42,044 bases of DNA from a virus. A program made the position numbers and the translations under genes. A model generated the notes under the pieces. The model saw only the letters and a program-made list of their open reading frames with translations, had not been told where the DNA came from and searched no databases. Below, one piece after another: positions 9,796 to 40,208 of this stretch; position 1 is the first letter of the stretch, and each line of letters begins with the position of its first letter. The stretch is from the IMG/VR virus record IMGVR_UViG_3300034050_000953, positions 1 to 42,044 of that record; one strand, 5' to 3'.

Positions 9796-12528
9796 CTATA
9801 TTAGAATTGTCTTTAACTTTTCAATTACCTGATCAGCAGTGATTAATTTTGAACATTCGAATTGACGAGGTGTACCTTTTTGATCTGGGCACCAATTCCA
9901 ATCACCAGCATTAAGCCTTAATCGGTTTGCGCAACCTGAACAAGCTCCAGTTGGTGCAGCTAATTTAATAATATCGCCATCTGGTTCATTATAAGGTTCA
10001 GTAAAACCGGAGATTTGAATACTTGGAGTATTTGTTACCCAAGCTAGCCAAGTTAATCCACTACTTATTCCAATAAATGCTGCGCATTCAGTTAATTCAG
10101 TAATTACTCGGTCAATTGTACCAGCTTCAAGTTTAGCAGCTCCAACCGGATTGCGGTTTCCCATATAACCGTCTTCTTCTCTAGATAATATTACAGGTTC
10201 ATAACCATTTGCAATTAACCAATCTGTAACTTCTTGCCAGCCGGTTGGATTATTCCAATATTTTGCTTGAGCAGTACTATGAATTCCAAGGCCTACTTTT
10301 TTCTTAACTATTGGACCAGTTGGATAATTAATAATTGGTTTAACCTCTTTATATTCCAAACCTAAAATATCGGTTGCAGTTCTTTGTAATGGACCTAATT
10401 TAAAATCTCTAGGATTTTTTTCACGATCAATATTATCTCCATTATGGAACCATCCAATTCTGTACATTGCATGTAAATTAGTTACCATTTGGCCAGGTTC
10501 AATTAATTCAATATTTGGATAAGTATCTTTAAATAGTTGATTCCAAAAAGTTGAACAGATTATAATACAATCGTGCTTCTTTCTAAATTCTTCAACATAC
10601 GGAAACCATGCTAAAGTATCGCCTAGTGCTTTTGACTCTAGTGGAATATAGACACGCTTGCCTTTTAGGTCAGTATTAAATATTATTACTGGATTTCCGT
10701 TCTGGTCCGTAACTTTAATTTTCCAATCTTTAAAATATTTGATTGAACTTTTTGCCCACGCTCCGCCGCTTAATTTTGTTGAATAAACTAATTTGTCAGT
10801 TTCATTATCAATAAAGTCTACTTGATATTTCATTGGACTTGTAGTTTTTAATTCAACAAACGGTCCATCTACTAAATTATGATTTACGGTAGGTAGTGCC
10901 TGAACTCCATCAATTGTTACATGATTCATTTTTGCAAAATTTTGGAAGTCATCATTTAAAAATTGAGTGAATGCGCATTTACCTAAATAATTAACAGTTA
11001 CTGTATAACCTTTACGATATTCGCCTAATTTAATAAGTAGAAAGTCTCCCTTTTTAAGAGTAGTAAACTGCACTGTTCCATTATACTTAATTTCAAGTAG
11101 GTAATCTTTGGTTGCAGGTTCATCGTGAAATCCTGAAACTAGATGTAAATATAAATTATTAAAATCGTCAGCTGCTGTATAAATTTGAAATTTAGCATCG
11201 TCTCTTAGGATACCATCTCTATTCCAAACAGCTTGTGTATTTAATTCATTTGAATTTGCAATATAATTAGTTACCCAAATATCCTTAGCGTGTTTTTCTA
11301 AATAGTGTAAAAATACTCTTTCTAATTGCCAACCATTTGGGCGATCCATAAAGTAATCCTTTTTTGTTTTTACTTCATTTATAATATTTAGGGCAACCTC
11401 AGTTTTAATTGAGAAAATAAAGGTTGCCATAAATTTAGCTAGGTGAGTATCAGTTACCGAGCCTTCATGATATTCATAAATTACGGCATCATGCTGATGA
11501 GCTCTTTCTAAAAAGGCTTGGCGATATTGAAAGGTATCAAGTAGATTATCATATTCCATAAAGTGAATCATCTTCTTTCCTAGATATTTACAGAAATTAA
11601 AAGCATGTGTCATTGATCTCCAAATTGCATAGTCATGGTGATATTCCATTTCTGTATCAACTCTAGTTTTTCCAAATGTACACCATCTACCGCTGCCTAC
11701 TTTATATTCTTCAAATTCAGAATTTAATAGCAGTGGATTTTCTTTATCATACAAATAATAGTCAACTAATTTTTGAATTTCCGGTTTAATTGCATAATGC
11801 GAAACCAATAAGATTGGAATTCCTGAAAATTCTCTAAGTTTTTTAATACACTCAATTAGGTCAGATTCTTTTTCTGGAGTATTTGGCCAAGTATCAACAA
11901 CAAAAATATCATCAGGATATTCATTCGGCCTAATTATTGAAGGTCTATTATCTACTGAGTATTTTATGTCATTTGCAATTCCACCTTTAACTCCAAAGAA
12001 ATATAGATCGCCTGGGTTTGAATTATATTCAAAAACTCCATCTGGAAAAGCTTCGTCAAAACCTTTTACTTTATGAATATCTTCTTCGGTTAAGTTCTTA
12101 TAATAATCAGACCATTCTTCTGAAATATTTGCAAGCAATGGAGCTGCCCAACTTCCATCTGACTTTCTGGTTCCATGTTCAGGTCTTCCAATTGAAGCAC
12201 ATGTAAATATAAATGCTCCACCAGGTTTTAGCATTCGAATAATGTTTTGTAATGACATTTCATAGAACATATCATGTTCAAATACTTCAGTTGAAATTAT
12301 CAAGTCAAACTGCTCGTCTGGTGCATCATATAAATGAGCAACTTGGATAACATCAACATTTTGGCCTTCTCCCACGTCTAATCCAATATAATTACAGTTG
12401 GTTAGCATAAATCGGTTATTGCCATTTATGTCCAATGATCCAATATCTAAAACTTTTTTGCCAGTGAAATATTTTGGGAAAATACCACTCATTTTTTTAC
12501 AAAATTCTTGCTGTTGAGGATGTGCCAT
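9796..12528 (-). CDS. Fusion: methyltransferase, GT-A-like domain, BAHT-type heptosyltransferase
   Basis: The protein has 910 residues. Residues 1-180 form a class I SAM methyltransferase: motif I KVLDIGSLDING near 24-35, acidic strand IGLDVG, and FDLIISTEVFEH then MLKPGGAFIFTC. Residues 200-460 resemble a GT-A fold with KKMIHFMEYDN as a possible metal-binding motif. Residues about 590-910 match the autotransporter O-heptosyltransferase family (Aah/TibC): a VDGPFVEL entry segment, GKRVYIPLESKALGDTLAWFPYVEEF, CSTFWNQLF, GLGIHSTAQAKYWNNP and GISSGLTWLAW. The cysteines CSGC, NWC and FEC near the end match the iron-binding Cys set of that family. These enzymes O-glycosylate serines of repeat-rich surface proteins. 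Ser/Thr-rich fibres encoded just upstream are the obvious candidate substrate. Confidence 0.85.
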   Translation of the reverse strand: MAHPQQQEFCKKMSGIFPKYFTGKKVLDIGSLDINGNNRFMLTNCNYIGLDVGEGQNVDVIQVAHLYDAPDEQFDLIISTEVFEHDMFYEMSLQNIIRMLKPGGAFIFTCASIGRPEHGTRKSDGSWAAPLLANISEEWSDYYKNLTEEDIHKVKGFDEAFPDGVFEYNSNPGDLYFFGVKGGIANDIKYSVDNRPSIIRPNEYPDDIFVVDTWPNTPEKESDLIECIKKLREFSGIPILLVSHYAIKPEIQKLVDYYLYDKENPLLLNSEFEEYKVGSGRWCTFGKTRVDTEMEYHHDYAIWRSMTHAFNFCKYLGKKMIHFMEYDNLLDTFQYRQAFLERAHQHDAVIYEYHEGSVTDTHLAKFMATFIFSIKTEVALNIINEVKTKKDYFMDRPNGWQLERVFLHYLEKHAKDIWVTNYIANSNELNTQAVWNRDGILRDDAKFQIYTAADDFNNLYLHLVSGFHDEPATKDYLLEIKYNGTVQFTTLKKGDFLLIKLGEYRKGYTVTVNYLGKCAFTQFLNDDFQNFAKMNHVTIDGVQALPTVNHNLVDGPFVELKTTSPMKYQVDFIDNETDKLVYSTKLSGGAWAKSSIKYFKDWKIKVTDQNGNPVIIFNTDLKGKRVYIPLESKALGDTLAWFPYVEEFRKKHDCIIICSTFWNQLFKDTYPNIELIEPGQMVTNLHAMYRIGWFHNGDNIDREKNPRDFKLGPLQRTATDILGLEYKEVKPIINYPTGPIVKKKVGLGIHSTAQAKYWNNPTGWQEVTDWLIANGYEPVILSREEDGYMGNRNPVGAAKLEAGTIDRVITELTECAAFIGISSGLTWLAWVTNTPSIQISGFTEPYNEPDGDIIKLAAPTGACSGCANRLRLNAGDWNWCPDQKGTPRQFECSKLITADQVIEKLKTILI

Positions 12529-12534
12529 TTTTAC

Positions 12535-13200
12535 TTATCTTTTTGTTATTATTGTTATTCCATTTAGGAAATTTACTGATTCAATATCAGTGCGAATTGT
12601 TAAACCTTTTTCTTTTGTCTGTTTAGTTAAGAAGTCTTCTCTTCTAGCATGCACGTTCCAAAATTCTTCTTGCATTTGCCCATTAAAATTAATATCATCT
12701 ACTAGATTTTTTGTAAATTCAATAGAGGAACCTGGGTGTTTAAAACCGCCTTCGTAATCTTCCCAATACGACGTGCAAGTATCTTCAATTACATATACTC
12801 CTTCCGGTTTTACGTGGTCAATTAAATGATTAAATGAGGTAATTACATGACGGTTAATGTGAGACCCATCATCAAGTACCATATCAAATGGTCCCCATTT
12901 TTGGGCAACCCATTTTAAAAAATTAGCATCATCTTGAGACCCAATTTCTACAAAAACCTTTTTATCTGGATTTTCGTATTGTTTGCATGAAGGTTCAATA
13001 TCAATGCCAATAATTGTTGCATTTGGATAGTATTCTCTCCAAGTAGAAAGAGACTCTCCATGCAATACCCCAATTTCAAGAATTTTTAAAGGCTCTAATT
13101 GGTTAAATGGTAACCACTTCTCGTATTTTACACAATAGTTGTGAATTTCAGAAGATTTGTCAGTGCCTTTAGAAAGGGCAATTGTATTTAGTGATCTCAT
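12535..13200 (-). CDS. SAM-dependent methyltransferase (sugar O-methyltransferase-like)
   Basis: The 221-residue class I methyltransferase has motif I LEIGVLHGESL near residues 41-51, the adenosine-binding acid at the end of ATIIGIDI, and FDMVLDDGSHI near 103-112, followed by VIEDTCTSYW. This pattern resembles the macrocin/mycinamicin/novobiocin O-methyltransferase and cephalosporin-hydroxylase-like group, whose known members often methylate sugar hydroxyls with a divalent metal (DDGSH would supply ligands). It sits six bases from the 910-residue glycosyltransferase and two bases from the 936-residue one, so a role in finishing a fibre glycan is likely. The substrate is inferred from context. 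Confidence 0.82.
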   Translation of the reverse strand: MRSLNTIALSKGTDKSSEIHNYCVKYEKWLPFNQLEPLKILEIGVLHGESLSTWREYYPNATIIGIDIEPSCKQYENPDKKVFVEIGSQDDANFLKWVAQKWGPFDMVLDDGSHINRHVITSFNHLIDHVKPEGVYVIEDTCTSYWEDYEGGFKHPGSSIEFTKNLVDDINFNGQMQEEFWNVHARREDFLTKQTKEKGLTIRTDIESVNFLNGITIITKR

Positions 13201-13201
13201 A

Positions 13202-16012
13202 TTATTTCCAAAAATAAATTAATTGTAGTGCATTATTAGGGCCGCAAAATAGTAAGTATGAATTAAAACCTAATCTGTTAAATCTGACAATAAATTCATC
13301 ACGTAATTCTTCATTAAAATTAAGGTGTTCATGATGATATTCAACTGCAACATTTCGAATCTTAGCTAAGTTAGCATCACTAATGCCTTTTAGTGCAATA
13401 ATTTCAGAACCTTCAATATCTACCTTTAAGAAGTCAATTCGGTCAATTAAACCATTGTCTAAAATATAGTCTAGGGTATATAGATTAACGTCGTATTGAG
13501 TAACAGTTGGATCTTTTTGATGCCATAAGTTAGAGCCACCTAAGTGAGAACTTTCAGTTAAGGTTAAGGTTCCTAATTGATCTCCAATTGCTGCATTAAA
13601 TAGGACGGCATTTGCTGGCGCATTTTGTTTTAGGATCTCAAAATACCTACGATCAGGTTCAAAGGTTACAATTTTACTTGCTCCCATATGATATGCATAC
13701 CGAGTAAAGATTCCAATATTTCCACCAAGATCAACCACTACATCTCCTGGTTGGATTTTAACAACTGGATTTTCTGAGCGGTGTGGATGTTCATAATCAG
13801 TTAAGTTATAAATTTCATGATAAATTGCATAATCCCATCCGTATTTATAGGCAATATCCATTGTACCACCTTGTACTTGTTTAATTGAACCTAAATTTTT
13901 AATTTCGTCCTTAGCAACAAAGAAATATTCAGTATCATGGAAATTTTGGTCTCTTTGAGCTTTAATATGGTCAATCATGATTTGAGCAAAGCCTAGATTT
14001 TTATTTCCATGAAAGTATAGAATTTGGTCTTTATTCTTTGGGATAAATTGCCAGCCGTATACTTTTCCAAAATTCTTAGGGCCTTGATCTCTCCAAAAAG
14101 AAATAAAGTGTTCCATTGCTTTGCCAGTTGTTCCAAGTAAATCGCCGTCCCATTCAGAAACATCAAAATTTGAAATTGGTAAAAACCTATTATAACCATA
14201 TTTGCATCTTAGGTAATTATCAATACCTTCATCATTCCATTGTAATAAACTTGGATAGTCCGCAAGATCAGTTTCTTTATATACTGTTAAGATTTCATTA
14301 AACCACCATTCGCAATTTCGATTGTATACGTACATGCAAATATGGGCTTTGGTAGCAAGACGCTTAACTCCTTTGGCTTTGCATAAATTTTCATTAAATA
14401 ATTGCTGACCTCTTGAACCGTCAGGTTTTGTATAATATCCAATAAAATCTTCCTGTACATGAATATCAGCTAATGGATAGTTTTCGATATTTGCAAAATG
14501 CTCTGATAATTTATCGATTGTATGGTTTGCAATAATATCACCATCCAACCAAACAAAATTTTCAAAACTTTCTTCAAAGGCTGCAAGACAGGCATATTGC
14601 TTCCAATACCATTTATCATAGTTTGAATAGTAGGGAATTGTTAATTTTCGGGCAATTACATTTGGCAAATAGTCAAACGGAACATCACAGTCAATTCCAT
14701 AAACAATAAGTTTACGGTTTGAGAATTCCAATAGCGATTCAGCTAATTTCTGAATGATCGGCATATAGGCCAGGTTACCGCAGGTCACCCATGCAAAGTC
14801 AGTTGAGTATTCATTTACCTCAGGTTGAATGAGGTCCTGGATGTGATCTTGTGCGATTTTTGCTGCATTTTCCCAAGTGAATTGGGTTCGGATTTGTTTT
14901 GATTCCATTAGCGCGGATTTTTTATAAATTTCATAATTATCATAAACTTCTCTAAGTCTAAGCTTAAGATCTTCAAAGTTTGGCTCAACGAAATTACCTG
15001 GAGCATTTGGATTCCAAGATTCGTCATTTGCAACACCAGCTGGAACTTCTCCATGGGTTGCTACTGGTAAACCTTTACCTGCAGCAAATTCTAATTGAGC
15101 TCCCCAATCAGAATAGATTGATGGGGTACCGCAGGCCATTGCCTCAATTAGTGGAAGATTCCAACCTTCACTACGAGCACAAGAAACAAATACATCAGCC
15201 GTTTGTAATAAGTTGACATAGTCAGCTTTGCTTAAATGAGTAAGTATTTTAATGCCTTTATGAGTTAAGCCAAATTTGGCAAGACGTTCTTGAGTATTTG
15301 AACAGTCGTCATTTGCAAATGGATTTTCAACATTTAGGATAAGTTCAACATTTTCATCTTCTGAAAAGGTATCAATGAATGCTTTTATAATTTCTTTAGT
15401 AGATTTGCGATATTCCCAGCGGCCAACTACAACAAATCTAAATGGGCGACCTTCTGGAAATGAGGTCTCTCGAGAAATGGGTTTAAACATTTGGGTATCA
15501 ACTCCCTCAGGTACAACCTTTACTTTATCGGCTCGAATTCCTTGGACAATTGTGCACTCTTTTTGCCAGCTGCTTGGAACCCAAACTTGGTCAAAGGTTT
15601 GTAAGTGTTTAAAAAAATCTTCTGGATATTTAGTAGTTTCCCAAACATTATAGGCAATTTTTGGGCCATCATACTTATCACCAAAATATTTATGATTAAC
15701 ATCATTTAAGACAATGTGAACATCAGGTTTTCCAGGATTTGGATAGTTTTGATATAGTGGAAACTCTTGTGAAAGGTTTGGGGTCTGTAAAGTTTGTTGA
15801 GTTAGGATTGTTTTTAACTCAGTATCAATATAATACTCATCATTATGAGGTTCATCATTATTATAACCCGTCCAGGTTGAACCTACTGTCCAATTTCTGA
15901 CATCAACTCTTAAATCTTCTAGAGAATTTAGGGCTTTAAAGAAATTTCTAGAATGACAATTGTATCCAGTTTCCCCAATAATTGAGGTGTGCGCTTTAAT
16001 TTTAATCGACAT
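13202..16012 (-). CDS. Fusion: GT4 glycosyltransferase, GT-A-like domain, FkbM methyltransferase
   Basis: The protein has 936 residues in three parts. Residues 1-400 form a GT-B, family 4 glycosyltransferase: VQGIRADKVKVVPEGVD, then FVVVGRWEYRKS for donor binding, and the EX7E motif EGWNLPLIEAMACGTPSIYSDWG near 286-294. Residues about 410-690 look like a GT-A domain, with FVWLDGDIIAN near 489 as the metal-binding DxD-like motif. Residues about 735-936 form an FkbM methyltransferase: VVDLGGNIGIFTRYA near 757, IVTFEPD, and IDFLKVDIEGSEIIALKG. One chain could thus add two sugars and methylate the product. The start follows a perfect 12-base inverted repeat, and AAAAGG before the ATG is one of the few Shine-Dalgarno-like sequences here. 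Specificities are unknown. Confidence 0.87.
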   Translation of the reverse strand: MSIKIKAHTSIIGETGYNCHSRNFFKALNSLEDLRVDVRNWTVGSTWTGYNNDEPHNDEYYIDTELKTILTQQTLQTPNLSQEFPLYQNYPNPGKPDVHIVLNDVNHKYFGDKYDGPKIAYNVWETTKYPEDFFKHLQTFDQVWVPSSWQKECTIVQGIRADKVKVVPEGVDTQMFKPISRETSFPEGRPFRFVVVGRWEYRKSTKEIIKAFIDTFSEDENVELILNVENPFANDDCSNTQERLAKFGLTHKGIKILTHLSKADYVNLLQTADVFVSCARSEGWNLPLIEAMACGTPSIYSDWGAQLEFAAGKGLPVATHGEVPAGVANDESWNPNAPGNFVEPNFEDLKLRLREVYDNYEIYKKSALMESKQIRTQFTWENAAKIAQDHIQDLIQPEVNEYSTDFAWVTCGNLAYMPIIQKLAESLLEFSNRKLIVYGIDCDVPFDYLPNVIARKLTIPYYSNYDKWYWKQYACLAAFEESFENFVWLDGDIIANHTIDKLSEHFANIENYPLADIHVQEDFIGYYTKPDGSRGQQLFNENLCKAKGVKRLATKAHICMYVYNRNCEWWFNEILTVYKETDLADYPSLLQWNDEGIDNYLRCKYGYNRFLPISNFDVSEWDGDLLGTTGKAMEHFISFWRDQGPKNFGKVYGWQFIPKNKDQILYFHGNKNLGFAQIMIDHIKAQRDQNFHDTEYFFVAKDEIKNLGSIKQVQGGTMDIAYKYGWDYAIYHEIYNLTDYEHPHRSENPVVKIQPGDVVVDLGGNIGIFTRYAYHMGASKIVTFEPDRRYFEILKQNAPANAVLFNAAIGDQLGTLTLTESSHLGGSNLWHQKDPTVTQYDVNLYTLDYILDNGLIDRIDFLKVDIEGSEIIALKGISDANLAKIRNVAVEYHHEHLNFNEELRDEFIVRFNRLGFNSYLLFCGPNNALQLIYFWK

Positions 16013-16017
16013 GCCTT

Positions 16018-16053
16018 TTGCTAAACTTTTTATTTTATACTAAAGTTTAGCAA
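16018..16053 (-). promoter_or_regulatory. Perfect 12-base inverted repeat in the leader of the GT4 fusion gene
   Basis: TTGCTAAACTTT (16018-16029) and AAAGTTTAGCAA (16042-16053) pair perfectly around a 12-base spacer. The spacer reads AGTATAAAATAA on the minus strand, similar to a promoter core. No U tract follows on the minus strand, so it is not a standard terminator for the gene ending at 16078. It may be a processing or stability hairpin, an operator, or a mix. Confidence 0.5.
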
Positions 16054-16077
16054 TAAGGTTATGTAATCTTAAAAAAA

Positions 16078-16317
16078 TTATGCAGCAGTTAAGCCTAGGG
16101 CAGTTAAGACTTTGGTAACAATAACACTATCATTTGTACCCCAATCAGATATATCAGTTAACCGAACTGCACCACTACAGATAATTGCATTGCCGCTATC
16201 CATTAATTGATAAATCACAGAAACTGAGGTTGCGCCTAATTCATAGGTCATGGGTATAAATTTAATACTGGTTGCAGTTTTGCCGAGTATTGAATAGTTT
16301 TGAATATTAGTAGTCAT
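16078..16317 (-). CDS. Small hypothetical structural-like protein
   Basis: A 79-residue protein with alternating strands (SIKFIPMTYELGATSVSVIYQLMD, then AIICSGAVRLT) and a C-terminal helix (DSVIVTKVLTALGLTAA). No family is recognised. The compact beta pattern, low charge and place directly after giant fibre genes suggest a small virion or fibre-associated protein. The ATG follows an AAATAAATAAAA leader but no Shine-Dalgarno sequence. It could also be a small chaperone or adaptor for the fibres. Confidence 0.65.
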   Translation of the reverse strand: MTTNIQNYSILGKTATSIKFIPMTYELGATSVSVIYQLMDSGNAIICSGAVRLTDISDWGTNDSVIVTKVLTALGLTAA

Positions 16318-16345
16318 GATTTTATTTATTTTTGTTTTTAACTAA

Positions 16346-17038
16346 TTATGGAGCAATTTCAATTGTAATAGAATATCTTCTAAAAAATGGTAATCCAGGG
16401 GTGAAAAACGAGATCGGGCCTGGAGGTATCGATATTGGAGGTCCACCAACAAAGTCGGCAATATTAAAGCCAGTATCAATGTCAGTTAGCCGAAGCTGCA
16501 CTAAGTTTACTGGGAATGGTGCACTATTGTCTAAATTAATGGTATGCTCAAAGTCTGCATTTGGCATGAAGTGCTGATAGTAATATGTAACTGGTCCACC
16601 GTTTATACTCGTGAGGCCAGTACTAAATGGGGTATTAGTAAAATAGGTATAAGGACCACTGGTTCCATCGTTTATCACTAATTCAACCATTATGTCAAAC
16701 GAAGAATTATTCATAACTTCGCCGTCATATGTGTGCTCATCAGTCCAGTGTCGATAATTATAAAACTGGTCAAATCCAATTGCACCTGCAACTGCGTTGG
16801 CTGCAGCCCAATAGCTTAATCCTTGTGGGTCATTTCGGTTGATGTCATAAGTACCAGCATATGTACCACTGAGTATTTTCCATCTAAACTCAGGAGCGCC
16901 CGTCTTATCTGGGTAAATCTGATTCCCGACACTGGCAGAAGCCCCAGACTGTTGAGTTAATAGTGCAGCAATCGAAGATTTGTCGTCTGGCGCCCAAACG
17001 ACCGCCATTACTCCAGTTGGTGTTCCGTCTATCGGCAT
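16346..17038 (-). CDS. Hypothetical virion protein downstream of the giant fibre
   Basis: The 230-residue protein is rich in aromatic residues, Gly, Pro and Asn. The first half has AVVWAPDDKSSIAALL and TYDINRNDPQGLSYWAAANAVAG, and the second half is beta-like (FDIMVELVIND, then YYYQHFMPNADFEHTINLD) with a proline-rich loop, GGPPISIPPGPISFFTPGLP. It has no cysteine, membrane segment or signal peptide. It starts three bases after the stop of the 4244-residue fibre, so it is translated from the same message. An adhesin tip, fibre cap or fibre chaperone is plausible from position. I do not recognise the family. Confidence 0.68.
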   Translation of the reverse strand: MPIDGTPTGVMAVVWAPDDKSSIAALLTQQSGASASVGNQIYPDKTGAPEFRWKILSGTYAGTYDINRNDPQGLSYWAAANAVAGAIGFDQFYNYRHWTDEHTYDGEVMNNSSFDIMVELVINDGTSGPYTYFTNTPFSTGLTSINGGPVTYYYQHFMPNADFEHTINLDNSAPFPVNLVQLRLTDIDTGFNIADFVGGPPISIPPGPISFFTPGLPFFRRYSITIEIAP

Positions 17039-17041
17039 TAC

Positions 17042-29776: not shown

Positions 29777-29833
29777 CTAGCTTAATTTCTTTTTTTTGAA
29801 TAGACTGAATCTTAGCCTATTTACTGATCAATA

Positions 29834-29843
29834 TTATTTATTT
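29834..29843 (-). promoter_or_regulatory. AAATAAATAA promoter-like element before the giant fibre
   Basis: The element lies in the 81-base gap between two fibre genes, 57 bases upstream of the ATG at 29776 and just inside the start of the gap. This is one of the wider gaps in the operon, which supports an internal promoter. The 3' end of the 2448-residue gene lies immediately upstream. Confidence 0.3.
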
Positions 29844-29857
29844 AAGATAGGCCAGTA

Positions 29858-32800: not shown

Positions 32801-35800
32801 ACCAGTTGAACCAGAAGTACCAGAGGTTCCGTCTGAACCAGAAGTACCAGAGGTTCCGTCTGAACCAGAGGTGCCGCTTGTTCCAGAAGTACCGTCTGAA
32901 CCGCTTGTGCCTGAAGTACCGCTTGTTCCATCTGAACCTGAAGTACCAGAGGTTCCACTTGTACCTGAAGTACCATTTGAACCTGATTCTCCTGAAGTTC
33001 CTGAGCTACCATCTGTTCCAGAGACTCCGTCTATTCCTGAAGTACCTGAGGTACCGCTTGTTCCATCTGAACCGCTTGTTCCGTCTATTCCCGAAGTTCC
33101 TGAAGTTCCGTCTGAACCTGAAGTACCGGAAGTACCGTCTGAACCTGAAGTACCAGAAGTACCGTCTGAACCTGAAGTACCAGAAGTACCGTCTGAACCT
33201 GAAGTACCAGAAGTACCAGTTGAACCTGAAGTACCAGAAGTACCGTCTGAACCTGAAGTACCAGAAGTACCGTCTACTCCGCTTAGACCTGAACTACCAG
33301 AGGTTCCACTAGAACCATCTGTTCCATTTATACCATCTGTTCCAGAAGTACCATCTGAGCCTGAAGTACCTGACGTACCATCTGAACCATTTGTTCCATC
33401 TATTCCTGACGTGCCGCTTGTTCCATCTGATCCGTTTGTTCCATCAATACCAGAAGTACCGCTTGTACCTTCTGAACCAGAAGTTCCACTAGAACCATCT
33501 GTTCCAGAGACTCCATCAATACCAGAAGTTCCAGAAGTTCCATCTGATCCGTTTGAACCTGAAGTACCGCTTGTTCCATCTGAACCTGAAGTTCCACTTG
33601 TACCATCTGAACCATTAGTTCCATCTATGCCTGAAGTACCAGAGGTTCCATTTGAACCTGATTCTCCAGAAGTTCCTGAGCTACCGTCAGTTCCAGAGAC
33701 TCCATCGATACCTGAAGTTCCGCTTGTACCTGAAGTACCGTCTGAACCATTTGTTCCATCAATTCCAGAAGTTCCACTTGTACCGTCTGATCCTGAAGTA
33801 CCAGAAGTACCATCTGAACCAGAAGTTCCACTTGTTCCTGACGTACCATCTGAACCTGAAGTTCCTGAAGTACCATCTGAACCTGATGTACCACTTGTAC
33901 CATCTGAACCTGATGTACCAGAAGTACCGTCTGAACCGGAAGTTCCTGAAGTTCCATCTGACCCGTTTGAACCTGACGTACCGCTTGTTCCATTAGAACC
34001 TGATTCGCCAGAAGTTCCACTAGAACCATCTGTTCCAGAGACTCCATCAATACCGCTTGTACCTGAAGTACCATCTGAACCATTAGTTCCATCTATACCT
34101 GAAGTACCTGAAGTTCCATCTGAGCCTGAGGTACCGCTTGTTCCATCTGATCCGTTTGAACCTGAAGTTCCACTTGTTCCATTTGAACCTGATTCGCCAG
34201 AAGTTCCTGAGCTACCATCTGTTCCTGAGACTCCGTCTATACCTGAAGTTCCGCTTGTACCGGAAGTACCGTCTGAACCATTTGTTCCGTCTAATCCAGA
34301 AGTACCGGAAGTACCATCTGACCCGCTTGTTCCTGAAGTACCATCTGACCCGCTTGTTCCAGAAGTACCGTCTGACCCGCTTGTTCCAGAAGTACCATTT
34401 GAACCAGAAGTACCATCTGACCCTGATGTACCTGATGTACCGCTTGTTCCAGAAGTTCCAATAGAACCGGATGTTCCAGAAGAACCATCTACGCCACTTA
34501 AACCAGAGCTACCACTTGTTCCAGAAGAACCATCTGAGCCTGAAGTACCATCTATTCCTGATGTACCAGAAGTTCCATCTGAACCACTAGTTCCATCTGA
34601 GCCTGAAGTACCGCTTGTACCATCTGATCCATTTGTTCCATCTATACCACTAGTTCCAGAAGTACCATCTGAACCGGAAGTTCCGCTTGTGCCTTCTGAA
34701 CCGGAAGTTCCACTAGAACCATCTGTTCCAGAGACTCCATCAATACCGCTAGTTCCAGAAGTACCGTCTGATCCGTTTGAGCCAGATGTACCGCTTGTTC
34801 CATCTGAACCTGAAGTTCCACTTGTACCATCTGAACCGTTTGTTCCGTCTATTCCACTTGTACCAGAAGTTCCATCTGAACCATTTGAACCTGATTCTCC
34901 AGAAGTACCTGAGCTACCATCTGTCCCAGAGACTCCATCGATACCAGAAGTACCCGAAGTACCATCTGAACCATTAGTTCCATCTATTCCTGAAGTACCT
35001 GAAGTACCATCTGAACCTGATGTACCATCTGATCCTGAAGTACCAGAAGTTCCATCTGAACCATTTGAACCTGATTCGCCAGAAGTTCCGCTTGAACCAT
35101 CTGTTCCTGAGACTCCATCAATACCTGAAGTTCCACTAGTACCACTTGTTCCATCTGAACCATTAGTTCCATCTATGCCTGAAGTACCTGAAGTACCGTC
35201 TGACCCATTAGTTCCATCTATACCTGAAGTACCTGATGTACCGTCTGAACCATTTGAACCTGATTCTCCTGAAGTACCTGAGCTACCATCTGTCCCAGAG
35301 ACTCCATCGATACCAGAAGTACCAGAAGTACCATCTGAACCATTAGTTCCGTCTATACCCGAAGTTCCACTTGTTCCGTCTGAGCCTGAAGTACCGCTTG
35401 TTCCATCTGAACCTGAAGTACCTGAGGTACCGTCTGACCCATTTGAACCTGATTCTCCAGAAGTACCTGAGCTACCGTCTGTTCCAGAGACTCCGTCTAT
35501 TCCTGAAGTACCTGAGGTACCGCTTGTTCCATCTGACCCATTAGTTCCATCTATACCTGAAGTTCCACTTGTTCCATCTGACCCATTAGTTCCATCTATA
35601 CCTGAAGTTCCACTTGTTCCATTTGAACCTGATTCGCCAGAAGTTCCAGAGCTACCATCTGTTCCAGAGACTCCGTCTATTCCACTTGTTCCTGAAGTAC
35701 CGTCTGAACCGTTTGTTCCGTCTATTCCGCTTGTTCCAGAAGTTCCAGCAGTACCGGAAGTTCCACTTGTTCCATTTGATCCTGAAGTTCCACTTGTTCC

Positions 35801-37204
35801 ATTTGAACCTGAAGTACCATCTGAACCAGTTGAGCCTGAAGTTCCGCTTGAACCGTCTACGCCGCTTAGGCCTGAACTACCACTTGTTCCAGAAGAACCA
35901 TCTTCTCCATTTGTACCATCTATACCGGACGTACCAGATGTTCCATCTGATCCTGAAGTTCCATCTGATCCTGAAGTTCCGCTTGTTCCATCTGAACCAT
36001 TTGAACCTGATTCTCCTGAAGTACCTGAGCTACCGTCAGTTCCAGAGACTCCATCGATACCTGAAGTACCGGAAGTTCCGTCTGAACCATTTGTTCCGTC
36101 TATTCCAGACGTACCAGAAGTTCCATTTGAACCTGAAGTTCCGCTTGTACCATCTGAACCGGAAGTTCCAGAAGTTCCATTTGAGCCTGATTCTCCTGAA
36201 GTTCCACTAGAACCATCTGTTCCAGAGACTCCGTCAATGCCTGACGTACCCGAAGTTCCGTCTGACCCGTTTGAGCCATTGGAACCAGAAGTTCCAGAAG
36301 TACCGTTTGAACCTGAAGTACCACTAGTTCCATTTGAGCCTGACGTACCGGACGTACCATCTGACCCGTTTGAACCTGATTCGCCAGAAGTTCCTGAGCT
36401 ACCGTCTGTTCCAGAGACTCCATCAATACCGCTTGTACCGGAAGTTCCATTTGAACCATTTGTTCCATCTATACCTGACGTACCGCTTGTTCCATTTGAA
36501 CCTGAAGTACCACTTGTTCCATTTGAGCCGGATTCTCCTGAAGTACCACTTGTTCCATTTGAGCCGGATTCTCCTGAAGTACCTGAGCTACCATCTGTTC
36601 CAGAGACTCCGTCAATACCTGAAGTACCACTTGTTCCATCTGATCCTGATGTTCCAGAAGTTCCATCTGAACCATTAGTTCCATCAATTCCAGAAGTACC
36701 TGAAGTTCCGTCTGAACCAGTAGTTCCATCAATTCCAGAAGTACCTGAAGTTCCGTCTGAACCATTAGTTCCATCTATACCTGAAGTACCTGAAGTTCCA
36801 TCTGAACCATTAGTTCCATCAATTCCAGAAGTACCTGAAGTTCCGTCTGAACCATTAGTTCCATCTATACCTGAAGTACCTGAAGTTCCATCTGAGCCTG
36901 AGGCTCCAGAGGTTCCGCTTGTTCCTGCACTACCGGCTGTGCCAGCAGTTCCACTACCTGATGCAAATTCTACTAAATCTGTATCTAATACTCCATCACG
37001 GTACCAATATTTATGAGAGCTGCCGCCGAAGATAAGGCGGACTTCCATTGATTGAAAACGGATGGCTGAAAGGATCGCTGTATTTGCTGCAGCAATCGCA
37101 GCAGTTTCGTTTGCCCCGGTATAAGGTCCGGACCAAGCATCTACTGGTACTGGGTTAACCGGCTGTATACCATACGGTAATTGTAATCCTGGAGTTAATG
37201 ACAT
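29858..37204 (-). CDS. Collagen-like fibre protein, 2448 residues
   Basis: Residues 1-85 form a non-repeat head (GIQPVNPVPVDAWSGPYTGANETAA, then FGGSSHKYWYRDGVLDTDL). Residues about 86-1565 are Gly-X-Y repeats dominated by [12 protein letters not shown] and GVS. About 1566-1690 form a globular insert (FYYEANNNAQSGNPGDGH, then LLQVGQQLTIQDRNN). About 1690-2255 are further repeats richer in GST and GTS. Residues about 2256-2448 form a beta-rich C-terminal domain (FEFNTVDRIYGIQIYMIG, then FTEITLAQDSVLWVSIPTF) that looks like a receptor-binding or trimerisation knob. No proline is seen in the repeats. The Asp content gives a strongly acidic shaft, unlike the near-neutral giant fibre. It starts six bases after the 644-residue fibre gene and is probably a virion fibre. 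Confidence 0.88.
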   Translation of the reverse strand: MSLTPGLQLPYGIQPVNPVPVDAWSGPYTGANETAAIAAANTAILSAIRFQSMEVRLIFGGSSHKYWYRDGVLDTDLVEFASGSGTAGTAGSAGTSGTSGASGSDGTSGTSGIDGTNGSDGTSGTSGIDGTNGSDGTSGTSGIDGTNGSDGTSGTSGIDGTTGSDGTSGTSGIDGTNGSDGTSGTSGSDGTSGTSGIDGVSGTDGSSGTSGESGSNGTSGTSGESGSNGTSGTSGSNGTSGTSGIDGTNGSNGTSGTSGIDGVSGTDGSSGTSGESGSNGSDGTSGTSGSNGTSGTSGSNGTSGTSGSNGSNGSDGTSGTSGIDGVSGTDGSSGTSGESGSNGTSGTSGSDGTSGTSGSNGTSGTSGIDGTNGSDGTSGTSGIDGVSGTDGSSGTSGESGSNGSDGTSGTSGSDGTSGSDGTSGTSGIDGTNGEDGSSGTSGSSGLSGVDGSSGTSGSTGSDGTSGSNGTSGTSGSNGTSGTSGTAGTSGTSGIDGTNGSDGTSGTSGIDGVSGTDGSSGTSGESGSNGTSGTSGIDGTNGSDGTSGTSGIDGTNGSDGTSGTSGTSGIDGVSGTDGSSGTSGESGSNGSDGTSGTSGSDGTSGTSGSDGTSGTSGIDGTNGSDGTSGTSGIDGVSGTDGSSGTSGESGSNGSDGTSGTSGIDGTNGSDGTSGTSGIDGTNGSDGTSGTSGTSGIDGVSGTDGSSGTSGESGSNGSDGTSGTSGSDGTSGSDGTSGTSGIDGTNGSDGTSGTSGIDGVSGTDGSSGTSGESGSNGSDGTSGTSGIDGTNGSDGTSGTSGSDGTSGTSGSNGSDGTSGTSGIDGVSGTDGSSGTSGSEGTSGTSGSDGTSGTSGIDGTNGSDGTSGTSGSDGTSGSDGTSGTSGIDGTSGSDGSSGTSGSSGLSGVDGSSGTSGSIGTSGTSGTSGTSGSDGTSGSNGTSGTSGSDGTSGTSGSDGTSGTSGSDGTSGTSGLDGTNGSDGTSGTSGTSGIDGVSGTDGSSGTSGESGSNGTSGTSGSNGSDGTSGTSGSDGTSGTSGIDGTNGSDGTSGTSGIDGVSGTDGSSGTSGESGSNGTSGTSGSNGSDGTSGTSGSDGTSGTSGSDGTSGTSGSDGTSGTSGSDGTSGTSGTSGSDGTSGTSGSDGTSGTSGIDGTNGSDGTSGTSGTSGIDGVSGTDGSSGTSGESGSNGTSGTSGIDGTNGSDGTSGTSGSDGTSGTSGSNGSDGTSGTSGIDGVSGTDGSSGTSGSEGTSGTSGIDGTNGSDGTSGTSGIDGTNGSDGTSGTSGSDGTSGTDGINGTDGSSGTSGSSGLSGVDGTSGTSGSDGTSGTSGSTGTSGTSGSDGTSGTSGSDGTSGTSGSDGTSGTSGSDGTSGTSGIDGTSGSDGTSGTSGTSGIDGVSGTDGSSGTSGESGSNGTSGTSGTSGTSGSDGTSGTSGTSGSDGTSGTSGTSGSDGTSGTSGSDGTSGTSGSTGTSGTSGSTGSDGTSGTSGTSGSDGTSGTSGTSGIDGVSGTDGSSGTSGESGSNGTSGTSGTSGSNGSDGTSGTSGIDGTNGSDGTSGSDGTSGTSGANGISTSVFYYEANNNAQSGNPGDGHILWNNATQISATQININHLTDAPITDIDIFLALLQVGQQLTIQDRNNSANYQVWVINGATTLITGASNYWTVPVALVSSGGTPQFANNHEIFLAIIAATGSSGTSGTSGSTGTSGTSGSTGTSGTSGSTGSNGTSGTSGTSGSDGTSGTSGTSGIDGVSGTDGSSGTSGTTGTSGTSGSDGTSGTSGSNGSVGTSGTSGTTGTSGTSGSDGTSGTSGSTGTSGTSGTSGTSGTSGSTGSDGTSGTSGTSGIDGVSGTDGSSGTSGESGSNGTSGTSGTSGSTGTSGTSGTSGTSGSTGTSGTSGTSGSTGTSGTSGTSGSTGTSGTSGTSGTSGTSGTSGSDGTSGTSGTSGIDGVSGTNGSSGTSGESGSNGTSGTSGSTGTSGTSGSTGSSGTSGSTGTSGTSGSTGTSGTSGSTGTSGTSGSTGTSGTSGTSGSSGTSGTSGSTGTSGTSGSTGTSGTSGSSGTSGSTGTSGSTGTSGTSGSSGSDGTSGTSGTSGIDGVSGTNGSSGTSGSAGTSGTSGTSGTSGSSGTSGSNGSSGTSGSNGSNGSSGTSGSNGSSGTSGSNGSSGTSGSNGSSGTSGSNGSSGTSGTSGSTGTSGTSGSDGSSGTSGIDGVSGTNGSSGTSGLTGTSGSDGSSGTSGGTGTSGSNGSSGTSGTSGSSGTSVSVSGTQSQYTVFGAGGTTVVDSTFGIFEDTTLDALLIGTQAVAEMPNEVVYSRHQNITTGVKQAHSNILYSDPISAFGSAGLKIDIVNNKSFEFNTVDRIYGIQIYMIGSAGGSNEVDYRMYSGAVKNIAGTVSIVGNGFTEITLAQDSVLWVSIPTFTISGAILLINIANNTSDQIAIAARVEIISDGLI
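30440..36955 (-). repeat. Asp-rich Gly-X-Y coding repeats of the 2448-residue fibre
   Basis: Two arrays, about 32510-36955 and 30440-32135, flank the coding region of a globular insert. Units such as [15 protein letters not shown] and GIDGVSGTDGSSGTSGESGSNG recur many times. Local 27-base and 63-base periodicities are visible, for example near 33120-33270 and 36640-36900. Confidence 0.9.
36783..36880. repeat. 98-base block identical to 38451-38548
   Basis: All 98 bases match a segment in the neighbouring 644-residue fibre gene, in the same orientation. A second 59-base match links 36696-36754 with 38409-38467. Confidence 0.9.
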
Positions 37205-37210
37205 ATTCTA

Positions 37211-39145
37211 TTATCTAGTTATTTGGTGTCGATGCGATGTTCCATAAGGAGTCGCATTTGTCATGGTATAGTTACGATACGATACGTTAGTACCGTAGGA
37301 GTCAACTACATTAAATGTTGATAAAACATAATTTCCAGTAATATCTGCGTTTAATGCATCTAAGTCAACTACACTGCTTAAACTTAGTGTAGCTGGCATT
37401 GCTGCTGTAAAATTGATTTGAGTAGTACCCGTTAATAAATTAAATGGATTACTTCCATCCGTAAATATTCGGGATCCTAGTGCTCTAATATCACTTGAAG
37501 TTGTTGGAACTGCGGATGATGGTCCGTAAAATATTAGATTTAAAAAACTAACTGTGGTATTTCCACCAGTTGCAAAACTTGATAAGGATGTTTGATATGC
37601 ATCAATTACTTTTACTCTATAATAGATGGTAGTTGACGCAAATAACGTAATATCATTATGATTAGTTAATGTAATGCTTGAAGTACCTGGACCAATTGAT
37701 ACCTCTGATCCAATATCTACCCATAAACTATTATTTAATGAGTATTGTAAAGTATAACTAGATAAGGCACTGTTTACACTATTTCTGGTAATAGTTCCGC
37801 TTAAATTAGTATTAATATTTCCTTTTTCTCTTTTTGTATTTGTTTCAGGTGAAGTACTTGAAACTGCAGCAACTGTTAAGGAAATTGATGGTGCTGAATA
37901 TGCGATTGGCGTAATATTTAAAGTAGCAGTCGCAGTTGCACCAATTGAATCAGTTACAATATATCTGTAATTAAAAGCAGAGGTATTATAATTAGTATCG
38001 GTGAGTGAATGTGTAAATGTACTTGGCGTAGTAGTTGAGGTTGATAAAACTACCCATGAACCTGCACCGCCTCTTCGCCATTCAAGAGAAACACTACTAA
38101 TTGTTGCTCCTAAACTATTTATAGTATGACTAAAATTTAGAACATTACTAATTGCTGTTTGATTAAACGCAATTGATGTGCTAGAAGTTAGAGCAACAGT
38201 TGGAGTAATTGGCTCAGCAATTGCTAAACTAATTACCTCAGCTGCAGTTTTTCCAGTTGCTGGAATAGTACTACCGCTTACATAACGTCCAAAAGTTCTA
38301 CCTCCAGTTAATGAAACAATTAAATCAGTTGGATAAGTAAAAGTATCACCACTTGTTCCAGAAGTTCCGTCTGAACCAGAAGTACCAGTTGAACCGTCTT
38401 GTCCGCTTGTACCTGAAGTTCCGTCTGAACCAGTAGTTCCATCAATTCCAGAAGTACCTGAAGTTCCATCTGAACCATTAGTTCCATCAATTCCAGAAGT
38501 ACCTGAAGTTCCGTCTGAACCATTAGTTCCATCTATACCTGAAGTACCGCTTGTTCCGTCTGAGCCGGAAGTACCAGTTGAACCGTCTTGGCCACTTGTA
38601 CCTGAAGTTCCATCTGAACCTGAAGAACCTGCTTCTCCGCTTGTACCTGAAGTACCGTCTGAACCAGATGTTCCATCTGAACCAGAAGTACCAGAAGAAA
38701 AACCTAATGGACTTGTTCCAGAAGAACCGGACGTACCTGACGTACCGTCTGAACCAGAAGTACCAGTTGAACCATCTTGACCGCTTGTACCTGAAGTACC
38801 AGAAGTTCCATCTGAACCAGAAGTACCAGTTGAACCATCTTGACCGCTTGTACCTGAAGTACCAGAAGTTCCATCTGAACCAGAAGTACCAGTTGAACCA
38901 TCTTGGCCACTTGTACCTGAAGTACCAGAAGTTCCATCTGAGCCTGATGTACCAGTTGAACCGTCTTGGCCACTTGTACCTGAAGTACCCGACGTACCAT
39001 TTGAGCCAGAACCACCAGAACCGGCACCAGGAGAATCACTATAATAAGCGTTACCAGCAGCATCAACTACCAAAAACTTATTTAATGAATTATCTTGACT
39101 TAGGTTGCTAAGATCAACCTGTTTTATTTTGAGTTTATTAGACAT
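37211..39145 (-). CDS. Collagen-like fibre protein, 644 residues
   Basis: A 46-residue N-terminal segment ([19 protein letters not shown], then [17 protein letters not shown]) resembles the attachment motifs of phage fibres. Residues about 47-266 are Gly-X-Y repeats (GTS, GSD, GQD, GST, with GID/GTN near the end). Residues about 267-644 are beta-rich, beginning [38 protein letters not shown], followed by Ig/fibronectin-like strands with many Ser/Thr ([17 protein letters not shown], then [21 protein letters not shown]). It has no cysteine or signal peptide. It is the first of three collinear fibre genes, with a promoter-like element 30 bases before the ATG. It is likely a short fibre or an adaptor between the virion and the longer fibres. 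It shares identical DNA blocks with the next gene. Confidence 0.86.
38451..38548. repeat. 98-base block identical to 36783-36880
   Basis: This is the partner of the block in the 2448-residue fibre gene. It encodes GTS, GID, GTN and GSD triplets and would allow recombination between the two genes. Confidence 0.9.
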
Positions 39146-39174
39146 TATACTGGACTTGCATTTTTCTACCTACA

Positions 39175-39186
39175 GTTATTTATCAG
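39175..39186 (-). promoter_or_regulatory. Promoter-like element before the first fibre gene
   Basis: The minus strand reads CTGATAAATAAC, identical over 12 bases to the element before the baseplate operon at 7017-7028. It lies about 30 bases upstream of the ATG at 39145, in a 70-base gap. It resembles the T4 late core. Confidence 0.4.
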
Positions 39187-39215
39187 TATACTGTATGCGA
39201 TAAGGCAGATCCGGT

Positions 39216-40169
39216 TTATCTATTTTCTTTTGCGTAAATTATTGCATCTACGTACTTAGCAGAAGCTGTATTAGGTTTAATATTTGAAAGATCCGCATTA
39301 AACGGGCTTGATTCTCGATAATCTGCTTTATAAAAAAGATCAGGTTTTCTATCATCTGTTACTCCAGCGTTATGCATAATTGTACAACGGTCATAATCCT
39401 CAATTGAGGAAGTTCCCCAACTAAAATTTAAGTCAGGTGTAATTATTGTTTGTGCACCAATTTTCCAGCCACCCCAAAGAACTGCCCACATATCCGCACA
39501 CCATTTTTGTACAGGATTATAGATTTTTAACTCTTCTGGTGTTAATGTATTGCGTTCTTGACTTTCTCTATCTGCCATATACTTATACATAGTTAATGAA
39601 TCTGAAATTACCTCTTTCCAAAAGTCAGAAGTAACGCCTTTCATTAAATATTGAGCACCGCCTGACCCTTCTTGATTTTTTTCTACTATTTCAGGAGAAA
39701 TTTTTGTTAAACTACAAAGGTCAATGAATAGGTCTTCTGATTTACTTTTAATATAATTTGCGCCAATATAAGAAACGGTATCACTTACATACCAATATAA
39801 ATTGTCATGCATTGAGTCGAAATCTGGAAGTTCTCTAAAGATAATATCTGAATCATGATAAAAAACGGTTTCACCACGTAATTCTGGATATTTTATCCAA
39901 TGCTGTTCAAGAATATCAGGCCTAAGAATTGGAATGTATCCAAAGTTTTGAGTTATTCTTTTTTTATAGAAAAAGAATCTAACCATTGGATATTTTCTAG
40001 CTAGGGCAAGACCTTCTTGGCTAGGCTCGTCATTATAGGCAAATAGAATTTCTATCCAATTTGGATTAATTCCATTTTTCATAAAATTGTGGATTACCAC
40101 CTCAACTTGCCAATGGAAGTATTGATGGTCAGGCTGTGCTGATATAAAAATAGTCTTCTTTGTTAACAT
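39216..40169 (-). CDS. Glycosyltransferase, GT-A fold (HPAT-like)
   Basis: The 317-residue protein begins TIFISAQPDHQYFHWQVEVVIHNFMK. It then has WIEILFAYNDEP, a GYIPILRPDILEQHW segment, and YHDSDIIF near residues 105-112 as a DxD-type metal-binding motif. WCADMWAVLWGGWKIG and the late His in TIMHNAG fit a nucleotide-sugar GT-A enzyme. The order of W-Q near the start, a strand, R-P then D-x-D-x-x-F recalls hydroxyproline O-arabinosyltransferases, which modify repeat-rich extensin-like proteins, but the resemblance is loose and the fibres here lack proline. It lies between the Thr-rich protein and the first collagen-like fibre, both possible acceptors. No signal peptide is seen, so it acts in the cytoplasm. 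Confidence 0.75.
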   Translation of the reverse strand: MLTKKTIFISAQPDHQYFHWQVEVVIHNFMKNGINPNWIEILFAYNDEPSQEGLALARKYPMVRFFFYKKRITQNFGYIPILRPDILEQHWIKYPELRGETVFYHDSDIIFRELPDFDSMHDNLYWYVSDTVSYIGANYIKSKSEDLFIDLCSLTKISPEIVEKNQEGSGGAQYLMKGVTSDFWKEVISDSLTMYKYMADRESQERNTLTPEELKIYNPVQKWCADMWAVLWGGWKIGAQTIITPDLNFSWGTSSIEDYDRCTIMHNAGVTDDRKPDLFYKADYRESSPFNADLSNIKPNTASAKYVDAIIYAKENR

Positions 40170-40208
40170 AATAAATTATACTAACTACCTTAATAGAGTT
40201 TAGGTAAG

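Follow-up and report, generated by a model that had tools for sequence, protein, structure and literature searches.

Does a bacterial virus that encodes giant collagen-like fibres beside a set of glycosyltransferases and methyltransferases use these enzymes to decorate its own fibres? The question is raised by a virus record of 42,044 nt, the whole stretch analysed here and referred to as the window, in which an ORF check placed the following genes, all on the minus strand:

40209-42044, minus strand, Thr-rich mucin-like protein (41% Thr), small domains between Thr tracts, continuing past the window end
39216-40169, minus strand, predicted GT-A glycosyltransferase, 317 aa, PHROG 4417 (AlphaFold model and alignment)
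37211-39145, minus strand, collagen-like fibre, 644 aa, 73 Gly-X-Y triplets, tracts within 38342-39016
29858-37204, minus strand, collagen-like fibre, 2448 aa, 684 Gly-X-Y triplets, tracts within 30437-36952
17042-29776, minus strand, giant collagen-like fibre, 4244 aa, 1159 Gly-X-Y triplets, main tract 18860-28363
16346-17038, minus strand, 230-aa protein without family match, between fibre and enzyme genes
13202-16012, minus strand, GT4/GT-A-like/FkbM fusion (P0012), 936 aa: GT4 14813-16012, GT-A-like 13808-14812, FkbM methyltransferase 13202-13807
12535-13200, minus strand, sugar O-methyltransferase-like protein (P0011), 221 aa, Methyltransf_24 (Pfam)
9796-12528, minus strand, methyltransferase/GT-A-like/BAHT fusion (P0010), 910 aa: methyltransferase 11986-12528, GT-A-like 11179-11928, BAHT 9796-10887

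Coordinates, tracts and Pfam Collagen matches agree with the initial annotation, in which three Gly-X-Y fibre genes and a Thr-rich gene shared one leftward block. The Thr-rich gene (40209) lies just beyond the end of the 9796-40169 region, and in several relatives a Thr-rich ORF precedes the homologue of the 39216-40169 gene. The 4244-, 2448- and 644-aa fibres scored 1471, 907 and 105 bits against Pfam Collagen (PF01391), respectively, all over the cut-off. Their tracts follow the pattern Gly-(Thr/Ser)-(Ser/Asn/Asp), the X and Y positions of the three fibres together present 3060 Ser/Thr side chains, and proline makes up 0.4-0.5% of the two large fibres and 2.5% of the 644-aa fibre. In the 4244-aa fibre, the longest unbroken Gly-X-Y run comprises 1056 triplets (residues 472-3639), and a C-terminal S74 chaperone domain lies at 17168-17332. 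These tracts are beyond chance, because a Gly-X-Y ORF of at least 12 triplets was found in just 7 of 120 random viral loci. One caution is that the lengths of the repeats were read from a metagenome assembly; in another contig of this virus the fibre block agrees, over 23 kb, to about 200 bp. Promoter and terminator scans of 28500-42044 gave matches no commoner than in shuffled sequence. Among near relatives, identity of the 230-aa protein ranges from 100% down to 45%, and no BLAST match to it was found beside the enzymes in the relative locus L021 or in more distant relatives.

Judged by its sequence, the 9796-10887 domain of P0010 (residues 548-908) is a member of the BAHT (protein O-heptosyltransferase) family, as had been proposed: it scored 267.4 bits against the curated TIGR04414 equivalog cut-off of 200 and matched TibC with an E value of 2e-50. 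The catalytic Asp-110 of TibC is kept as Asp637 (10618-10620), Cys339, Cys342, Cys358 and Cys370 as the iron-finger Cys863, Cys866, Cys880 and Cys892 (Cys863-Cys892 at 9853-9942), and the sugar contacts Thr226, Lys230 and Trp305 as Thr752, Lys756 and Trp827. The catalytic Asp and the four Cys are invariant in an alignment of 14 phage BAHTs. The adenine-contacting Arg-286 of TibC, reported as highly conserved, is lost in P0010, where Val808 is aligned and Arg807 lies one column off, and this column is variable among phage BAHTs. Arg-286 is a feature of the donor site and does not define the family; since it is lost, the donor may be other than ADP-heptose. In the P0010 domain, position 300 is Ser, like that of AAH, which accepts both ADP-heptose epimers according to PMC4358343. 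Besides the kept residues, the phage enzyme shares with TibC and AAH a gene close to a repetitive Ser-rich partner. Unlike them, it is phage-borne, lacks Arg-286, has a methyltransferase and a GT-A-like domain fused to it and is partnered by a Gly-X-Y protein instead of an autotransporter; no autotransporter gene was found among the neighbours of the phage enzymes, which comprise Gly-X-Y fibres, other enzymes, virion genes and a few genes without family match. Known BAHTs form a dodecameric ring and transfer heptosyl to Ser, and the phage domain may do likewise.

As to the sugar donor, no sugar-nucleotide gene was found within the window, and a self-contained system is not established. Of 50 BAHT records, 13 gave HldC-like matches, all of which stayed below the curated cut-off and one of which was weak (E 6e-5); GmhA-like matches were obtained in 2 of 18 records, both below the cut-off. 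No sign of a heptose donor made by phages of the window's lineage was found, HldC-like matches being present in 0/5 near relatives searched.

The five glycosyltransferase and three methyltransferase domains attributed to the fibre block by the initial annotation are present, two of the GT-A assignments being made by motif. The GT-A fold of the 39216-40169 enzyme is backed by its AlphaFold model (pLDDT 93.2), which resembles glycogenin (Z 14.4, with an rmsd of 3.6 over 226 aligned residues) and LgtC (Z 13.8), and by Tyr104-x-Asp106-x-Asp108, invariant in its family (alignment, n=21), of which D106-x-D108 is the DXD motif. In P0012, GT4 and FkbM were assigned by Pfam, and the middle domain (13808-14812) had no significant Pfam or PDB-sequence match and carries an invariant D-G-D motif (n=7). 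The GT-A-like domain of P0010 similarly had no significant match in Pfam or PDB sequences and carries an invariant Y-D (n=11). A predicted structure of P0010 residues 187-579 (pLDDT 65) was set aside, its nucleotidyltransferase and GT-A matches being too weak and the collagen-modifying LH3 being one of many. Nor was homology among the three GT-A-like domains supported, a profile comparison having given no match. The PDB sequences nearest to P0011 are 3ssm (MycE; E 1.7e-27) and 8ia9, a demethylmacrocin O-methyltransferase (E 2.2e-22); P0011 thus shares sequence homology with macrolide-sugar O-methyltransferases. BAHT and 3ssm-like domains are not known to act on DNA, and fibre and tail genes surround the block. 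Hence, although some phage glycosyltransferases are known to glucosylate DNA (PMC12619734), we regard it as highly improbable that the glycosyltransferases and methyltransferases modify the phage DNA.

The expected co-occurrence of BAHT with Ser/Thr-rich Gly-X-Y genes was supported by a survey of phage loci, in which BAHTs were clustered at 70% identity (n=34) and a cluster was counted as positive if at least one member has a Gly-X-Y ORF. Such an ORF was found within 10 kb in 28 of 34 clusters, compared to 7 of 120 random viral loci (the random loci being shorter), and within 2.5 kb in 16 of 34. An E-value filter removed four minus-strand ORFs from two clusters (long branches, E about 1e-12); together with the addition of L210 this brought 36 clusters to 34 and 29/36 to 28/34. 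All 13 clusters with a P0010-type GT-A-like domain had a Gly-X-Y ORF nearby. Collagen exceeded the cut-off in 38 of 50 BAHT records versus 6 of 35 random records, which are shorter; clusters and, more so, records are non-independent, several records being near copies. The pair is also carried by an isolate, Microcystis phage Mel-JY01. In the 28 BAHT clusters Ser and Thr made up a median 0.83 of the X/Y positions, compared to 0.26 in 117 phage collagen loci taken without selection (p 7e-13), and the medians for proline were 0.00 versus 0.13 (p 3e-8).

A Gly-X-Y ORF was also present within 2.5 kb of 15 of 31 bacterial BAHT loci, the other 16 being without. Thirteen of these 15 partners are small secreted-looking (GTS)n/(GSS)n proteins with a signal- or lipoprotein-like start. 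At several loci, among them L215, L224, L227 and L228, the partner consists of such a start followed by a tract of (GTS)n or (GSS)n and little else; the partners at L212, L214, L216 and L219 have an additional domain, and Pfam scans of those at L212 and L219 gave Collagen alone over a cut-off. Entries labelled as cultured methanotrophs, e.g. Methylobacter luteus, carry the pair. Strong bacterial matches (L211-L231, 15/21) differed from weak ones (L232-L241, 0/10; p 2.5e-4), a contrast not relied on because the split was post hoc, L238 and L241 are partial and 2.5 kb on both sides is available in 5/10; weak loci with both flanks gave 0/5 (p 0.007). Scans of five neighbours of the weaker matches gave no autotransporter partner, and one of the five was without any family match.

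GT4, GT-A and FkbM domains are common in surface-polysaccharide pathways, and sugar dehydratase-type genes (PF16363) were found in 8 of 14 related records. The enzymes could then remodel host surface glycans, for instance to block superinfection, their nearness to fibres arising from host-recognition islands that gather such genes; glycosyltransferases of the pelagimyophage host-recognition cluster have been read in this way (PMC7029224). However, characterised BAHTs are protein O-glycosyltransferases (PMC4358343), the link is specific to Ser/Thr-rich, proline-poor Gly-X-Y genes and does not extend to collagen at large, and it recurs with small secreted-looking (GTS)n proteins in some bacterial genomes. 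Moreover, another phage glycosyltransferase family, that of 39216-40169, had a Gly-X-Y ORF in the available flank of 0/31 loci at 42-63% identity (L078-L109 minus the truncated L090). Host-glycan remodelling is therefore an unlikely explanation. Some of these 31 records carry collagen elsewhere, and at 58-100% identity (L045-L077) a Gly-X-Y ORF lay in the available flank of 30 of 33 loci; with close loci positive and distant ones negative, a tie of this family to collagen as such is not supported. Collagen exceeded the cut-off in 12 of 13 records with this family and BAHT, and in 7 of 26 with the family and without BAHT.

The pairing is not universal. No Gly-X-Y ORF lies within 10 kb in 6 of 34 phage clusters. 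That the enzymes occur regularly without a Ser/Thr repeat protein, named beforehand as contrary evidence, was found in part: a Gly-X-Y gene was near 1 of 30 members of a stand-alone phage BAHT cluster, 18 of which are flanked by 5 kb on either side, and a 636-kb phage record with BAHT had no Collagen match. The claim that the enzymes act on Ser/Thr-rich fibres is thus strengthened by the recurrent, composition-linked nearness and the bacterial pairing, and weakened by the 30-member cluster. Conversely, a BAHT match was present in 4 of 20 collagen records rich in Ser/Thr and in 2 of 30 that are poor in these residues (p 0.2), one of the latter two matches being weak (E 3e-6) and one lying with a proline-rich collagen. 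That Ser/Thr-rich collagens usually have BAHT is not supported, 16 of 20 such phage records, many of them fragments, being without it. Some stand-alone phage BAHTs adjoin HldC/HldA-like genes and a giant fibre that is not collagen-like and that, in the one case checked, has S74 at its end, and according to PMC4358343 characterised BAHTs modify beta-helical autotransporter repeats; the acceptor of BAHT might accordingly be a different virion protein (the 230-aa protein, the Thr-rich protein or non-collagen domains of the fibres), the Gly-X-Y tract being a mere neighbour. Yet Ser/Thr enrichment at X/Y follows BAHT presence and several bacterial partners offer hardly more than a (GTS)n/(GSS)n tract, which makes this account quite doubtful.

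Taken together, what is observed comprises the domains, the retention of the iron-finger and catalytic residues, and the way in which BAHT genes of phages and bacteria recurrently lie close to Gly-X-Y genes of Ser/Thr-rich composition. In near relatives, the BAHT is 95% identical and the methyltransferases are down to 67% and 35%. This is the basis of the reading that we favour as probable, namely that the block is a fibre-glycosylation module acting on the fibres' own Ser/Thr. The recurrence of the pairing in many viruses and some bacteria suggests that the enzymes coat Ser-rich fibres with sugars. From this basis we infer the reaction, acceptor residue, sugar, step order and effect on stability or recognition. 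In the cytoplasm of the infected cell, the BAHT domain would put a sugar, a heptose provided that it acts like characterised BAHTs, on Ser along the fibres, probably at Y of Gly-(Thr/Ser)-Ser triplets; the Ser-at-Y pattern is present in generic Ser/Thr-rich tracts too. The glycan would be lengthened by the GT4 and GT-A-like domains and receive its O-methyl caps from three methyltransferases (N-terminal, FkbM and 3ssm-like); the 39216-40169 enzyme would more likely target its Thr-rich neighbour. Dense O-glycans would replace proline/hydroxyproline and stabilise or shield the fibre, the main tract of the giant one reaching about 0.9 micrometre if it is a triple helix.

Known systems offer partial parallels. 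A064R of the chlorella virus PBCV-1, a GT-GT-methyltransferase, builds and O-methylates the virion glycan end (PMC9614988); P0012 is laid out analogously as a virus-encoded three-domain fusion of two glycosyltransferases and a methyltransferase, but A064R serves N-glycans of an algal virus. Mimivirus encodes collagen-like proteins and the collagen-glycosylating L230 (PMC9614988), a pairing that resembles the one proposed for the phage; L230, however, is a giant-virus lysyl hydroxylase/glucosyltransferase acting on Lys, a different enzyme family and acceptor. The stability of Riftia cuticle collagen is associated with abundant glycosylated Thr (PMC11766948), but this is an animal protein, and the phage tracts carry mostly Ser at Y, with Thr at X. 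Virion proteins of mycobacteriophages are reported to bear glycans (PMC12619734, PMC12894461), as is proposed for the phage fibres; there, the glycans sit at the C-termini of capsid and tail-tube subunits. Among the open-licence papers listed, none described a phage BAHT or a BAHT paired with a collagen-like protein, which is weak evidence of absence.

If true, fibre glycosylation would supply an acceptor for a large phage glycosyltransferase family, explain the cohesion of proline-free collagen-like fibres hundreds of nanometres long, give a bacterial and phage parallel to the collagen glycosylation of animals and giant viruses, and open up a genetically encoded way of making collagen-like material that is glycosylated. 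More tentatively, and with somewhat less than an even chance, this BAHT branch may be a dedicated Gly-(Ser/Thr)-Ser collagen-like glycosyltransferase common to bacteria and phages, whose ring would processively decorate the Y serines, with O-glycans in place of proline/hydroxyproline and swappable methyltransferases varying the virion's outer cap.

The fibre and enzyme genes lie in one leftward block, as the initial annotation had proposed, and follow each other from 42044 to 9796 in this order (the middle domains of the two fusions are candidate GT-A-like domains, assigned from motifs):

Thr-rich gene
39216-40169 (-), P0017, GT-A enzyme, 317 aa
37211-39145 (-), collagen-like Gly-X-Y fibre, 644 aa
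29858-37204 (-), collagen-like Gly-X-Y fibre, 2448 aa
17042-29776 (-), collagen-like Gly-X-Y fibre, 4244 aa
gene of 230 aa, unknown
13202-16012 (-), P0012, GT4/GT-A-like/FkbM fusion
12535-13200 (-), P0011, sugar-methyltransferase-like
9796-12528 (-), P0010, methyltransferase/GT-A-like/BAHT fusion

The 4244-aa fibre carries 1056 Gly-X-Y triplets without a break. Of all triplets in this protein, 98% have Ser or Thr at X and 95% have Ser or Asn at Y, and proline is near nil. As the collagen triple helix rises 0.286 nm per residue, the unbroken stretch would measure about 0.9 micrometre. The fibre ends C-terminally in an S74 chaperone domain, a type that acts on trimeric phage fibres. Antisense to it runs a 3197-aa open frame (18891-28484, +), which is a by-product of the repeat; in the GenBank record Mel-JY01 such an antisense frame (739-2298, -) is annotated at the place of the fibre frame. 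Repeat number differs among almost identical strains, the 37211-39145 gene and its L047 and L048 homologues having 73 and 80 triplets (644 and 665 aa), respectively.

The BAHT (protein O-heptosyltransferase) domain of P0010 scores over the curated family cut-off, and its alignment with TibC has an E value of 2e-50. Of the functional residues of TibC and AAH described in PMC4358343, it retains the catalytic Asp, the four iron-finger Cys and three that contact the sugar. At TibC Pro-300 it has Ser, a residue shared with AAH, which takes both heptose epimers (PMC4358343). At TibC Arg-286, the adenine contact, it has Val, and an Arg stands one column off; an alignment of 14 phage BAHTs shows an invariant Asp, four invariant Cys and a variable Arg column.

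To determine how often BAHTs accompany collagen-like genes, IMG/VR was scanned with a BAHT alignment: at least 599 stretches matched and 591 were confirmed. Together with the earlier loci and L210, which is read as a phage contig assigned to a bacterial bin, the best 80 yielded 140 BAHT ORFs; some of these are a single gene retrieved in overlapping pairs of loci. At 70% identity they form 34 clusters. A Gly-X-Y ORF (at least 12 triplets) was found within 10 kb of BAHT in at least one member of 28/34 clusters, in at least half of the members of 26/34, and within 2.5 kb in 16/34, compared to 7/120 viral loci drawn by random 14-mer, which are shorter than the BAHT loci (median 8.8 kb). Two of the six remaining clusters (L134/L138/L139 and L146/L147) have Pfam Collagen over cut-off elsewhere in the record. 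Across whole records, Collagen passed its cut-off in 38/50 with BAHT (hand-chosen, favouring longer contigs and including near relatives of the window) versus 6/35 random ones (those of at least 20 kb among 80 random-locus rows listed). Among 39 P0017-family records, the values were 12/13 with BAHT versus 7/26 without, although the BAHT-bearing records are longer on the whole, several records nearly duplicate one another, and the BAHT-less ones include a piece of the window's own virus (G128).

Tract composition is a sharper test of the link than nearness. For comparison, 120 viral loci were drawn by 19 Gly codons at Gly-X-Y spacing with X and Y free, and 117 of the 119 new loci had a measurable tract. 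Taking the longest tract per cluster, the median Ser+Thr fraction at X/Y was 0.83 in the 28 BAHT-linked clusters versus 0.26 in the 117 generic loci (p 7e-13), and median proline was 0.00 versus 0.13 (p 3e-8). Ser holds the majority of Y positions in 24/28 clusters, and Thr occupies at most 13% of them in 26/28. Since the 11 generic loci with Ser+Thr of at least 0.6 likewise show this Y pattern, it does not prove which residue is the acceptor. Conversely, BAHT matches in Ser/Thr-rich (4/20) and Ser/Thr-poor (2/30) collagen records, many of them fragments, did not differ significantly.

Against the pairing of enzymes with Ser/Thr-rich repeat genes expected by the initial annotation stands one cluster of 30 stand-alone BAHTs (350-385 aa): a Gly-X-Y ORF is near 1/30, and 18/30 have flanks of 5 kb on each side. 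Neighbours were listed for six members (L170, L174, L183, L190, L201, L203). In all six, BAHT is preceded by a gene of 723-749 aa, with GT4 and methyltransferase in L201, the one scanned, and in five a fibre-like gene of at least 1150 aa lies upstream, with S74 in the one scanned; from this gene context, phage BAHTs may therefore serve other fibres too. Adenylyltransferase- and kinase-like genes follow BAHT in four (L170, L174, L201, L203), with HldC and HldA as best families, under curated cut-offs, in the two scanned (L174, L201), which suggests that heptose enzymes are phage-supplied in some cases. HldC-like matches occur in 13/50 BAHT records and GmhA-like ones in 2/18.

In species genomes, the BAHT alignment gave 32 loci, or 31 excluding L210. 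A Gly-X-Y ORF (here at least 10 triplets) lies within 2.5 kb of BAHT in 15/31, the negatives including short flanks and partial BAHT matches, and at 8-176 bp in 10/15. Thirteen of the 15 partners (L212-L216, L219, L223-L225, L227-L230; Methylobacter, Methylomicrobium, Methylococcaceae, one Polaromonas bin and gammaproteobacterial bins) are small proteins that begin like a signal peptide or a lipoprotein and carry a (GTS)n, (GSS)n or similar tract; four scanned partners passed the Collagen cut-off. The other two (L211, L231), like L218 and L220 with tracts 5 kb off, look phage-derived. In a quick tree, a gammaproteobacterial group (Gly-X-Y 7/7, support 83) branches apart from a group in which phages, methanotrophs and Flavobacteriales contigs are mixed.

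Taken together, the best reading, and a reasonably probable one, is the central proposal of the initial annotation, namely that the neighbouring enzymes glycosylate the fibres. Virus-made glycans on virion proteins are known: PMC9614988 describes PBCV-1 A064R, a comparable GT-GT-methyltransferase fusion acting on a virion glycan, and mimivirus L230, which glycosylates collagen; in worm collagen, stability is associated with glycosylated Thr (PMC11766948). What appears to be new is BAHT as likely initiating enzyme of Ser/Thr collagen, its spread in phages and its chromosomal counterpart in bacteria.

As for the other enzymes, the P0017 model (pLDDT 93) has a GT-A fold nearest to glycogenin, with LgtC and others close. 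P0017-family homologues adjoin a major capsid or major tail protein gene in the Enterococcus phages Planchet and phiFL1A (L004, L005), and the family is a candidate for glycosylating virions in phages that infect Gram-positive bacteria. P0011 is related to a demethylmacrocin O-methyltransferase and to 3ssm (MycE). Compared to the window, L017 and L018 show 95% identity in BAHT, 67% in the methyltransferase domain and 35-36% at the P0011 position, and L030 and L031 are without a P0011 gene at the corresponding place. In these four loci BAHT and GT domains are retained and the module's methyltransferase genes are missing or diverged, a pattern that fits an exchangeable outer methylation of the glycan.

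Judging by large terminase, tail-sheath stabiliser, baseplate wedge and tail tube matches, the window, a 42,044-base IMG/VR virus record, is a fragment of a T4-like phage. Its terminase is closest, among the isolates listed, to Sphingomonas phage PAU and Tenacibaculum phages PTm1 and pT24 (30-33% identity); some metagenomic phages of 460-640 kb rank closer, and the window's near relatives reach 271 kb. A BAHT 76% identical to the window's is found on a contig from the bin of an uncultured Bacteroidetes genome, so our guess for the host is Bacteroidota. The phage also has a tmRNA gene (7094-7460, +; tag peptide GNTTFWSLVNQGVNTPVTEELLAA) and encodes a sigma-70-type factor (692-1318, -) adjoining a PhoH-like gene.
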